A stretch of DNA of 64,000 nucleotides from Neocallimastix lanati (nom. inval.) (Eukaryota; Neocallimastigomycota; Neocallimastigomycetes; Neocallimastigales; Neocallimastigaceae): NCBI GenBank assembly GCA_016946835.1, contig JACVTC010000258.1:10001-74000 (forward strand). Reading direction: 5' to 3'. Position 1 is the stretch's first letter, and each line of letters starts with the position of its first letter. Below, one piece after another: positions 2,547 to 64,000 of this stretch. Both the position numbers and the translations under genes were made by a program. The notes beneath the pieces were generated by a model. The model made no database searches. It was not told the DNA's origin and saw only the letters and a program-made list of their open reading frames with translations.

Positions 2547-2561
2547 GGGGTTAGGGTTAGG
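2547..2561 (+). repeat. Telomeric-type tract, junction 1
   Basis: Reads GGGGTTAGGGTTAGG and is followed immediately by TTTTAAAC, the complement of an element A 3' end. It joins the satellite on the left to element A1. The G-rich strand is the + strand. Confidence 0.9.
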
Positions 2562-2603
2562 TTTTAAACTTTGTAATTTTTATTAAAATTATTCGATTAG
2601 ATA

Positions 2604-2655
2604 ATACATTAATTAATGTATATATAAATTATATGAAATCATGACTACATGATTT
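2604..2655 (-). other. Paired hairpins near the element A 3' end
   Basis: Two perfect inverted repeats lie within 100 bp of the telomere junction. The first is the 18-bp palindrome ATACATTAATTAATGTAT (2604-2621). The second, at 2636-2655, has the 8-bp arm AAATCATG, an ACTA loop and the arm CATGATTT. Element B has the same two hairpins in the same order with changed but still paired bases. Recognition of the 3' end by the reverse transcriptase is a plausible role, inferred from other LINEs with 3' stem-loops. Confidence 0.6.
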
Positions 2656-2940
2656 TAAGTAAATTAATACATTTTTAGTAAAAAAATAAAAGTTCGATAA
2701 AGTAAAAAAAAAGTATATATCTATAAAGTTTAGAATTTTAAGGAAGAGAAAAATTATTCTTTTAAAGTAAATGAATAATAAAAGTAATTCTAATAAAAGA
2801 ATTTTTGTAATTATCTAAAAGAATATAAAGTTTTTATAATCTAGTAGAATATTTTAAAATAAAATTTATAAAGAAATTAAATTTTAGTTTGTTCGTAAAG
2901 TAAGTATATTTAATTAAAACTGAAATCGTATGAAATATAT

Positions 2941-60795: not shown

Positions 60796-62161
60796 TAATG
60801 AAAATTTTACTTAAAAATTTGTCTTCTATTTATATTTTAAAATTAAATCTCCTATTTTAAAATTAAATCCCCTTTATAATTTGCATTTAACTTTTTTTTC
60901 TATTAATTATAATTACAAAAATTTTAATGGTACAAACCTTTATATATTTTTAATTTAGAAATAAAAGATCTTATAAATATTAATTATTAATATTATCATA
61001 CATCCTCCTTACTTTTAATTAATAATTAGGAGTTACATATTATTAATATTTTAATAAATTTTTTTTTTTTTTATTATTATTATTTATTTATTTAAATTAT
61101 TATGATAATTTAATTTCTTATTTTTTATTTTTTAATATAATAAAATTGATTTTTAATTAATTCATATTAAAATAAAAATAAGTAGTATTATTTTTTTTTT
61201 TTAATAAATAATTTCAAATCATAATGAATAATCGTTCCAAATAATTTTATTTTTTATTTTTTCTTTTTTTTTTGAAACTTAAGATTGTTAAATTTTAGTC
61301 GTTTATTTAAAAAATAACAAATAAAATTTACGACAAAAAAAAAAAAAAAAAAATTAAATATTAATTATTATATAATATAAATATTCATATATTTATAATT
61401 TTGATTTGATTTATAATATTAATTAAAATTTTTTACACTTGTAATATTTAATGATTTTAATTTATAATTTCAAAATATATATTTCTTAAAATTTAATATC
61501 AATTTTTTATTTATAAAATTATTAATTTATAAAATTAAATAAATATTAATTGTATTACTGGTACAAACTATAAAATTTATTTAATTTAATCTTAAATATT
61601 ATTAAATAAAATATTAATATTTATTTAATATTTATAAAGATATTATTGATATTATTTAAAATTTTTACAGTAGAGATTCTTTAATGTGGCAATATTAATA
61701 TCTTTTTTAAGTATTATATTTTTTTTTTACTTTAAATTATATTTAAAAAAGTAAAAAAAAAAAAAAAAAAAAAAAAAAAAAAAAAATAATAATATTTAAT
61801 ATTGTAAAAATCTAAAATTAGTAAATTTTATAGTAATTACATACATTTTATAATTTTTTTTTTTTTATTTTTATATTTAATTTTTTTATTCAATAATTTA
61901 ATCATTTATAATGATAGAATTATAAATAATAATTTTTAAACTAAATTTAAATAATGAAAATTATTTTCATAAATTATTATTTTTATTAAAGTATGTAATT
62001 TTATAATAATAACTAATTATTTAATACAATAAAAAATTTTATATCAAAAAAGAAAAAATCAAATAGTTTAAATGGATTATACAAATTAATTAATTTTTAA
62101 ATATATTAAATATAATAATATAATTTATATATATATATATATATATATATATTTTTTTTTT
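60796..62161. other. A+T-rich DNA between ORF1 of A4 and the ORF2 fragment
   Basis: No gene or telomeric tract is seen. A poly-A run of about 36 bases is at about 61751-61786 and a TA dinucleotide run at about 62127-62150. It may be the element A 5' UTR, the 3' UTR of the element that owns the ORF2 fragment, or both joined without telomeric repeat. Confidence 0.5.
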
Positions 62162-62790
62162 TTACTTATTGTTATTTATAATTTCCCAATAAATATAAAA
62201 TTTTTCAATAAATAATTTAAATGTGTTGTAATTTTTATGATTTAATAAAGAATCTAAAATATTATAAGTTTTTGGTAAATCCTTAAATTTTTCCTTGTCC
62301 TCTTTTAATAATAATAAATCATTTTCTGTAATGATTGATTTAAAAGGCTCATATTCAATAAATTTACATTCATTAATATGTCCTCTATTAAAACTTTCAC
62401 CGCAAATTGGACAAGTTTTTTTATGCCCGAAACTATTTAATCTCCAATTTATAGAATTGTATCTTGTAGTACTATCTCTAATAAAGATACATCTATCTGG
62501 AGAAATAATTATAGAATTTTCTGGATTTATTATTTTATTAGTTCGAGCATAAGGAAGGATTATAGCATCAGACTTTAAATTTAAGAAGTAATTTTTAATC
62601 ATAAGATTAATTCTATAATCCATGTCATCCAATTCTTTAGGCCTTATTATTTCTTTTGTAATTGGATCTACCTTAGGACGAGGAGGAGGTAGATTAAAGT
62701 ATTTTAAATTAAAAATATCTTTTCTTGATATTATTCTTCCAGCAAACGAAGTCATACTTAATAATGCATTTTTTTTTAAATCAAATGTTT
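62162..62790 (-). pseudogene. LINE ORF2 C-terminal fragment with CCHC knuckle
   Basis: Homologous to the C-terminus of the element C ORF2: shared blocks are NLKYF, ILPYAR, TRYNSINWRLNSF, CPICGESFNRGHINEC and YNILDSLLNHKNY. The zinc knuckle is C115-X2-C118-X7-H126-X3-C130, numbered from the ATG at 62755. The frame is open upstream of that ATG to the telomeric junction at 62790 (residues DLKKNALLS), so the fragment is a 5' truncation and not a complete small gene. The endonuclease and RT core are missing. It represents a second, diverged ORF2 lineage. Confidence 0.85.
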
Positions 62791-62803
62791 TTTAGGGGTT
62801 AGG
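62791..62803 (+). repeat. Telomeric-type tract, junction 9
   Basis: Reads TTTAGGGGTTAGG, then TTTTAAACG of element B3. Confidence 0.9.
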
Positions 62804-64000
62804 TTTTAAACGTTATAATTTTATTTAATAAAATTAATCAAAATAGTTAATACATTATTAATGTATATATAATTTAAGAAAAATCATTATTGATTTTCAA
62901 GAAGTTTAATTATTAAACTATTCTAGCGACTATTATTATTTTAAACAAATAATAATAGAAAATAAGATTTTTATTTTAGATATTAAAATCTATTCTAAGA
63001 TTTTTAAACTATTCTATTTGTAACAAAGAATTCTATACTATTCTAGAGAATTATTATTAAGAAAATAATAATAATTATAGCAAGCGAATAATAACTTTAA
63101 ATATTAAGTAATTATTATTGTAAAATAATAATTAATACAATCTTTAAGAATTAATATTATTATAAAAATAATAATTAATACATGAGTTTATAATTATTAT
63201 GAGAAATAATAATTAATACATGAGTTAATAAATAATACATTTTAAAATAGAAAATTATTATTATTATGAAAATAATAATAATTAATACATGATTTTATAG
63301 AAGATTATTATTATGAGAAATAATAATCAAACAATTTTGATTAAAAAATATTGTTATTATATAAATAATAACAATTATACATAAGTTTATTAAATAGATT
63401 ATTATAATAATAAAATAATTAATTATTAAATAAATAATAATTAATTAAAAGTATTGTTAATTATTATAACAATCATAGAGAATAAAGAAAATACATCCCA
63501 AGAAGGTAAGGTCGGAGAACCGAGAACCAAAAAAAGGGATCCAAAGAATCCAGAATAACCCAAAGAATAGACAAGAGAACTAAAAGACAAGAACTCTGAA
63601 TCAAAGGAGTACCCTGGAGAATAAGCAAACGAGAATCCAACAACCAATCAAGTAACCAGAAGAATAACCGAAAGAGAATCCAGCAAACCAACAAAGAGTA
63701 AACCGGAGAGTTCAGCAAGACAACAGAAATCCTGAAAACCAAAAGGAACCAAAAAATCATTCCAAAAGGAAACCGGAGAGATTACATTCCAGTAATCAAA
63801 AGTGAGAACCGGAGTTTAAATCAAAAAGAGTCCAGCTAACAAAAGTGTCAACTGGAAGAGTTTAAAGACATTCCAGAAAACAGGTTAAAAAACCTGAATT
63901 CTGGGCGAATTATTTAAATATATTTTATTTTATTTTGATATAATGAATATTGCAAACGAATACTCATTAATACGGAAAAAATATTTTAAAAAAAAACAAA
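62804..64000 (-). mobile_element. Element B, copy B3 (runs off the window)
   Basis: Matches B1 over all visible 1.2 kb: hairpin array (about 62850-63375), T-poor module (63465-63910) and stem-loop (63873-63904). At one variable site (CTATTTGTAACAAAG) it matches B1 and not B2. Its 5' side is outside the window. Confidence 0.9.

Follow-up and report, generated by a model that had tools for sequence, protein, structure and literature searches.

A Probable Chromosome-End Array of Telomere-Targeting Non-LTR Retrotransposons in the Anaerobic Gut Fungus Neocallimastix lanati

Results

An Array of Elements Ending in a Telomere

The 64,000-nucleotide stretch analysed here (the window) comprises bases 10001–74000 of a 79,851-base contig (JACVTC010000258.1, hereafter C177; other contigs are likewise given as C plus a number) in the 199-Mb, 762-contig assembly GCA_016946835.1 of the anaerobic gut fungus Neocallimastix lanati (nom. 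inval.). It contains a head-to-tail array of long interspersed nuclear elements (LINEs), retrotransposons without long terminal repeats (non-LTR). At nine positions (2557, 5214, 12473, 14828, 50065, 55466, 56039, 58145, and 62799) the sequence GGGTTAGGTTTTAAA occurs on the + strand, and to the right of every occurrence lies the 3′ end of an element read on the − strand; it never occurs on the − strand, and 0.00 occurrences are expected from 100 dinucleotide shuffles. A preliminary description of this DNA had claimed nine junctions between older sequence, a telomeric tract, and an element 3′ end, with all elements on the − strand and mostly 5′-truncated. All nine junctions are present, the long open reading frames (ORFs) of the elements lie on the − strand (only shorter overlapping ones, of at most 169 aa, lie on the +), and most copies break off at differing 5′ points.

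The array forms two blocks, 2557–∼26000 and 50029–69412 (window numbering, as elsewhere unless stated), separated by AT-rich tandem repeats. Between 14828 and 50065 there is a single element start, then 35 kb without a further junction. The statement that the elements are joined only by telomeric tracts thus stands for the nine junctions but fails for the middle, because the AT-rich repeats divide the two blocks, and fails again at a nontelomeric join at 60795/60796 (see below). Two of the intervening tandem arrays, at 32235–35448 and 35591–38953, have periods of ∼198 and ∼274 bp.

C177 extends 5,851 bases to the right of the window, through four extra junctions (64503, 66844, 66962, and 69302) and into a terminus where TTAGGG and TTAGGGG repeats fill ∼430 bases from 69413 onward, directly preceded by a 110-base family B stump. 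Because the G-rich strand runs to this telomere, the 5′ side of each element faces outward. The chromosome end presumed on the right in the preliminary description, with 3′ ends inward and 5′ ends outward, is therefore borne out, and an interstitial relic distant from a telomere is ruled out for the window.

Junctions Are Frequent and Mostly Oriented toward Chromosome Ends

The 12-mer TTAGGTTTTAAA, put forward earlier for a genome search, is unspecific alone, with 295 matches against 468 for its reversal, but becomes diagnostic with a preceding GGG. Exact junctions then number 165 genome-wide (107 with the A/B-type end and 58 with the C-type end), against none for the reversed patterns. A chance origin of the junctions was rejected given their absence from shuffles and reversed controls, the bare 12-mer being however commoner reversed. 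A junction search in viral contigs gave one match, in which the sequence after the 18-mer resembles no family.

Orientation was tallied for the 158 of the 165 junctions that were listed, which lie on 58 contigs and to which the following counts refer. Among the 33 contigs with at least two junctions, two (C1 and C665) carry both orientations. From the first 100 of 152 places with four TTAGGG repeats, 21 telomere-bearing contigs were obtained; 17 carry junctions, and the orientation of all 59 of these matches that of the telomere tract. If C212 is set aside, where the tract sits inward of both junctions and does not serve as their cap, the count is 57/57 on 16 contigs. The C212 tracts (C212:1486026–1486316) are interstitial repeats of four TTAGGG, oriented like the junctions at 1.31 Mb and on their inner side. 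On contigs of known length above 100 kb, 33 of 37 junctions face the nearest end and 29 lie within 50 kb of an end. Apart from a minority of interior copies, the 3′ ends of the elements thus adjoin telomeric repeats and point the same way with respect to the chromosome end, and the earlier view of them as telomere-linked and one-way holds largely across the genome.

Among 70 matches in a family A comparison that scored 40 of 116 candidates, array copies are mostly 98%–100% identical to the query, the exceptions being variant A′ (81%–85%) and a few copies at 87%–89% (C750 and C505). Matches well inside contigs (C35, C128, C168, C212, and C666:869162; those below 40 bases set aside) are 71%–86% identical, except for a 345-base fragment on C1 (95%) and a copy on C58 that is 98% identical and 68 kb from the end.

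It is scarcely credible that the array was created by the assembly. The region is repetitive and AT-rich, there are many short contigs, with blocks common to some of them, and C305 unites the junction spacings of C253 and C299, which would also fit exchange between ends or haplotypes; but this kind of junction was counted 165 times over no fewer than 58 contigs, megabase ones included (C57, C157, and C666, the latter of 0.99 Mb), and these junctions differ in their flanks while largely agreeing in orientation.

Fixed Register at the 3′ End, Telomeric Seeds at the 5′ End

GGG precedes 40 of 40 distinct family-matched 3′ ends at loci fetched without the GGG pattern (the whole-array stretches among them lie on contigs chosen with it), and 58 of 58 once further loci are added. 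At the other extremity, terminal elements meet the telomere at their own 5′ breakpoint. Of 65 ends, 38 could be compared with a longer copy to place the breakpoint; two of these were excluded, their anchor falling within the telomere, and two were unscorable, leaving 34. In 27 of these 34 the bases preceding the breakpoint continue the repeat in phase for 1–3 nt, i.e., form a telomeric seed, where 25% is expected at random positions of these elements (P = 5e-11). Of the nine seedless ends, seven scored zero and two were the unscorable ones; five of the nine have a C, terminal or added, in front of TAGGG, as seen among capped ends such as C177:24822, C191:8798, and C126:5919 (array coordinates). 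In Magnaporthe, seeds were reported at 17 of 23 ends, with a terminal C in five of the six exceptions (PMC7367193).

Internal tracts, 56 when distinguished by exact flank, have a median length of 15 nt including TTAGG; 53 are at most 27 nt and the others 41, 116, and 124 nt. Some of the flanks differ by few mutations, so separate events are fewer than 56. Terminal tracts at the five fetched ends measure ∼80 to 434 bases and may be clipped by the assembly.

Three 3′-End Families with a Common Terminus

Three 3′-end families recur: A (TTAGGTTTTAAACTTTG), B (TTAGGTTTTAAACGTTA, also found in A′), and C (TTAGGTTTTAAATTCTT). All share the terminus TTTAAAACCTAA, whose CCTAA is the telomeric C-strand, and those ends of families A, B, and C that were examined show no long A-run at the junction. 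A, A′, and B resemble each other past the first 12 bases; by eye, C has little in common with them beyond this terminus. Near its outer end family B carries a TTTAGGGTCAAA-type minisatellite (10684–11419 and ∼55330–55448) that is telomere-like, not telomeric.

In the genome comparison of family A (40 of 116 candidates scored, 70 matches), a 2651-bp unit was found in 16 full-span copies at ∼100% identity, query included. Its 740-aa protein matches N. lanati proteins and is homologous to ORF1 of the family C element (BLASTP, 7e-26). Nine of the copies stop within 5 nt of one common 5′ place, adjoining junction or telomeric sequence, and this recurrent 5′ end (5207 and 60795 in the window) could be a transcription start. 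Family A as a simple gag-only element, first favoured, was weakened as an interpretation because the other seven copies run on in the 5′ direction into sequence of the type that starts at 60796. In the window, the element at 58145–60795 passes without any telomeric tract into 60796–62791. This join recurs in ten copies including that of C177; in three of them the unit is A′ (81%–82% identical) and the upstream part is 98%–99% identical. In C177 the upstream sequence leads to an ORF2 C-terminus (62162–62791), 37%–39% identical to that of the C element and found beside family A sequence elsewhere only in the interior C1 copy (97%). An ORF2 C-terminus lying 5′ of an ORF1-like gene, as in this one long copy, is an unusual order for a LINE.

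ORF2 Encodes an APE-Type Endonuclease and a LINE-Type Reverse Transcriptase

The element starting at 14828 has an ORF1 (816 aa) and an ORF2 that is split across two frames. The reverse transcriptase (RT) of ORF2 matches PF00078 (E = 3e-26) and, among solved structures, best matches L1 ORF2p (2e-18) and R2 (3e-16). Its closest relative is a protein labelled Orpsp1_1, a label we take to mean Orpinomyces (61% identity), next to unnamed proteins, and a protein of Anaeromyces robustus is also among the matches. These relatives support well the preliminary guess of a gut fungus. With a LINE-type RT and a constant 3′ end accompanied by varied 5′ breakpoints, these elements are LINEs.

The N-terminal domain of ORF2 was recognised as an endonuclease through its relatives and fold, not through Pfam. 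The best structural matches of its model (predicted local distance difference test, pLDDT, 91.7) are the TRAS1, R1, and L1 endonucleases, tied within one Z unit, and cellular APE1-type enzymes rank less than one Z unit below them. The catalytic residues of APE-type endonucleases are N, E, D, N, and H, and across an alignment that includes 30 relatives the corresponding positions vary hardly or not at all; since they are kept, the endonuclease is presumably in use. ORF2 has this N-terminal APE domain and not the restriction enzyme-like (REL) endonuclease of MoTeR, FoTeR, and Cnl1: inspection by eye of three ORF2 C-termini (two from the window, one from the relative labelled as Orpinomyces) with the REL motif pattern of PMC12857005 revealed the CCHC and no RHD after it.

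ORF2 and the family C 3′ end likely belong to one transcript, and this is only likely because the second copy of the 14828 element, which attests to their continuity, matches only the first 2.9 kb.

Telomerase Domains and TTAGGG Caps

One locus on C106 contains two telomerase RNA-binding domain pieces above the Pfam cut-off, one of them with internal stop codons, as expected for an intron or a broken gene, and downstream of them an RT piece below the cut-off. All five array ends fetched are capped with TTAGGG. Telomerase is probably active, its reverse transcriptase (TERT) being seen as domain pieces in the genome sequence, and telomerase loss is unlikely given these pieces and the caps. Both suggest that the elements coexist with telomerase, with no replacement of the Drosophila type. 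HeT-A, TART, and TAHRE of Drosophila, the exception to telomerase, form end-to-tail arrays with 5′ ends outward, truncated copies, and an element with only a gag-type ORF. An equivalent situation here, where retrotransposons have replaced telomerase, has in its favour the head-to-tail order, the outward and often truncated 5′ ends, and the frequent 2.65-kb unit with an ORF1-like gene only, of which seven of 16 copies continue 5′; but the caps at five of five ends together with the TERT pieces largely refute it, leaving it very improbable.

Features of the Window

The features are given in Table 1. Neither Rfam, at gathering scores, nor ARAGORN gave a match there.

Table 1. Junctions, Element Copies, and Coding Regions in the Window
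Feature	Position	Strand
Junction 1, telomeric tract and family A 3′ end	2545–2568	+
Family A copy, 2651 bp, one ORF (740 aa, ORF1-like, 2941–5163 stop to stop)	2557–5207	−
Junction 2, telomeric tract and family B 3′ end	5209–5225	+
Family B copy, no ORF of at least 120 aa; 36-bp minisatellite at 10684–11419	5214–11419	−
Junction 3, tract and family A 3′ end	12468–12484	+
Family A copy, 5′-truncated	12473–14821	−
Junction 4, tract and family C 3′ end	14822–14839	+
Family C-ended element: long AT-rich 3′ region, then ORF2, ORF1	14828–∼26000	−
ORF2, two frames: 1021 aa (20503–23568) and 517 aa (18999–20552); APE endonuclease, PF00078 RT, CCHC near C-terminus	18999–23568	−
APE-type endonuclease domain, 218 aa, model pLDDT 91.7	22681–23334	−
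ORF1 of family C element, 816 aa, homologue of family A protein	23522–25972	−
Junction 5, longest tract of window (41 nt including TTAGG) and family B 3′ end	50029–50076	+
Family B copy, 5.4 kb	50065–55447	−
Junction 6, tract and family A 3′ end	55448–55477	+
Family A copy, 5′-truncated, 562 bp	55466–56027	−
Junction 7, tract and family A′ 3′ end	56027–56050	+
Family A′ copy (∼85% to A), ORF1 fragment of 569 aa	56039–58138	−
Junction 8, tract and family A 3′ end	58134–58156	+
Long family A copy: 2651-bp unit and 1996-bp 5′ extension with ORF2 C-terminus (62162–62791)	58145–62791	−
Junction 9, tract and family B 3′ end	62791–62810	+
Family B copy, extends past window end; array onward to telomere at 69413	62799–64000	−

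Discussion

How the Array May Have Formed

We regard it as probable, at about 85%, that telomere-targeting non-LTR retrotransposons built this array at a chromosome end, with 3′ ends primed by the telomeric G-strand, 5′ ends capped with TTAGGG, and landing repeated. The element RNA would end in ...UUUAAAACCUAA, and this end would be copied from the 3′-OH of the G-rich telomeric strand in the fixed register of GGG followed by TTAGG, which would place the element 3′ end inward. The first DNA strand would then be the + (G-rich) strand, extending the telomeric 3′ end. Because the CCUAA of the RNA is able to pair with TTAGG, the register could be fixed without a poly(A) tail. Reverse copying would usually halt early, and the exposed 5′ end would be capped with TTAGGG, usually through a seed of 1–3 nt, either by telomerase or by joining of the distal part of the telomere. 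The next element would land in the new short tract, and repetition of these steps would yield the array. Register, orientation, location, and seeds were observed directly, as was the presence of APE endonuclease, RT, and TERT domains; three parts of the scheme are inferred: the pairing of CCUAA with the telomere, capping by telomerase, and copying by the ORF2 proteins of these same elements.

The preliminary description had proposed either end addition primed by the overhang or insertion into telomeric repeats; the link to telomeres is upheld, and between the two we lean tentatively towards a nick made by the endonuclease near the telomere base over priming at a free eroded end. A scenario independent of the endonuclease appears rather unlikely. 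In it, chromosome ends eroded to one to three repeats would offer their free G-overhang for copying of the RNA, as an emergency extension beside telomerase. The contrast between the internal tracts, of which 53 of 56 do not exceed 27 nt, and terminal ones of up to 434 bp fits worn-out ends, and so does an RNA end complementary to the overhang in families whose examined ends lack a long A-run. However, the endonuclease domain retains its catalytic residues and is presumably used, and breakage of internal tracts as in Magnaporthe (PMC7367193) would equally leave short tracts. The short tracts may mean that elements insert at the telomere base, that they join worn ends, or that long internal tracts are lost afterwards.

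Alternatively, recombination (break-induced replication or unequal exchange) might be the main way in which the arrays grow, and retrotransposition might be rare or extinct. In a comparison of 19 of the 58 contigs, picked for looking alike, junction spacings recur in C57/C537/C545, C157/C297, C126/C269/C347/C497/C666, C175/C402, and C253/C305, and within C177 two units, of 0.12 kb and 2.34 kb, recur as a pair. Unless they represent haplotypes, as some of the shared blocks may, contigs with equal spacings are evidence that array segments are also exchanged between ends or duplicated. Recombination as the main source is nonetheless quite improbable: the 56 internal junctions have flanks that differ by exact comparison, many with distinct 5′ breakpoints, and several distinct flanks are found among the 16 near-identical copies of the 2651-bp unit.

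Several observations weigh against retrotransposition into telomeres as the origin of the array. No retrotransposition was observed, the window ORF2 is split over two frames, and its endonuclease piece has no Pfam match at E up to 1. The short internal tracts misfit insertion at random sites in a telomere of 80–430 bp. Four of the 21 telomere-bearing contigs (C451, C459, C486, and C506) lack an exact junction among those listed. A minority of element copies is interior, and four of the 37 junctions on long contigs point away from the nearest end (C1:3776082, C128, C141:122420, and C168); the left flanks of those on C128, C141, and C168 are closely similar, so they are probably one duplicated relic. 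Copies scattered in both orientations, named in the preliminary description as evidence against telomere linkage, are thus found as a minority only, these four junctions and the two mixed contigs standing against 59 of 59 on telomere-bearing contigs. Finally, contig ends have junction blocks in common; some copies thus stem from recombination or from duplicate haplotypes, and the 165 junctions cannot be counted as independent.

Comparison with Known Telomeric Elements

The parallels named earlier were HeT-A/TART and TRAS/SART. The closest counterparts are instead fungal and had gone unnamed, namely MoTeR and FoTeR (PMC7367193, PMC12857005), and the Drosophila parallel falls to the caps and TERT pieces. 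MoTeR1 and MoTeR2 of Magnaporthe/Pyricularia oryzae resemble the present elements in being fungal and telomeric with 5′ ends nearest the chromosome end, in forming arrays with interstitial TTAGGG tracts (of 1–10 repeats in MoTeR), in their many 5′ truncations and interior relics, and in joining the telomere at seeds (1–7 nt in MoTeR), a healing ascribed there to telomerase; a partner element sharing both ends may be counted as a further likeness (PMC7367193). Unlike the elements described here, MoTeR1 has a SLACS/CRE1-like RT, a putative REL endonuclease, and TTCGGG(TTTGGG)n at a terminus (PMC7367193), whereas here ORF2 carries an APE-type endonuclease and all three 3′-end families end in TTTAAAACCTAA. 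FoTeR of Fusarium oxysporum is likewise telomeric, with more truncated than full-length copies, and its asymmetric junctions were interpreted as target-primed reverse transcription; it differs by its REL endonuclease and belongs to a clade with MoTeR1, Cnl1, SLACS, CRE1/2, and CZAR (PMC12857005). The fungal telomeric retrotransposons that we found described, namely MoTeR, FoTeR, and Cnl1, are thus all members of one REL-endonuclease clade (PMC12857005).

Outside fungi, several systems share traits with this array. Athena elements of bdelloid rotifers have been proposed to anneal to the G-overhang. They are endonuclease-deficient Penelope-like elements, whereas here one finds a LINE with an APE domain and conserved catalytic residues; as here, they coexist with telomeric repeats (PMC10088271). 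TRAS and SART of Bombyx mori share with the present elements an APE-type endonuclease and insertion into telomeric repeats (PMC10088271). The caps and TERT pieces found here set the array apart from HeT-A, TART, and TAHRE. TRAS and SART contain ORF1 and ORF2 and have a poly(A) 3′ end, whereas none is seen at the junctions here.

Telomeric elements are recorded in insects, algae, a lizard, fungi, rotifers, and Giardia, with none from an anaerobic fungus in the available part of that survey (PMC10088271). A literature search combining anaerobic fungi, Neocallimastix, or Neocallimastigomycota with telomeres found no paper on a telomeric element among titles and abstract starts (subscription journals being mostly uncovered); the preliminary description likewise knew of none for what looked like an anaerobic gut fungus.

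Implications

The architecture is that of MoTeR and FoTeR, and the insertion logic is likely theirs as well; what differs is the endonuclease type, the phylum, and the shared telomere-complementary 3′ terminus. That an APE-type element with ORF1 and ORF2 behaves in this way in an anaerobic phylum that diverged early suggests that telomere targeting arose separately within the fungi. More tentatively, and at somewhat less than even odds, one may envisage a mixed telomere, in which telomerase adds TTAGGG while LINE families with a converged or shared CCUAA RNA end attach by complementarity to the G-overhang, so that pairing, beyond the choice of endonuclease, sets target and register. If true, this would represent an independent fungal origin of telomere use, by an APE-type lineage in an early-diverging phylum. 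The 12-nt terminus with CCTAA shared by three families offers a testable prediction on how LINE RNA finds the telomere, and the likeness of the capped 5′ ends to those of Magnaporthe, in seeds and in terminal C, suggests that both follow one capping rule. The fragmentation of chromosome ends in assemblies of anaerobic fungi may owe something to such arrays as well.

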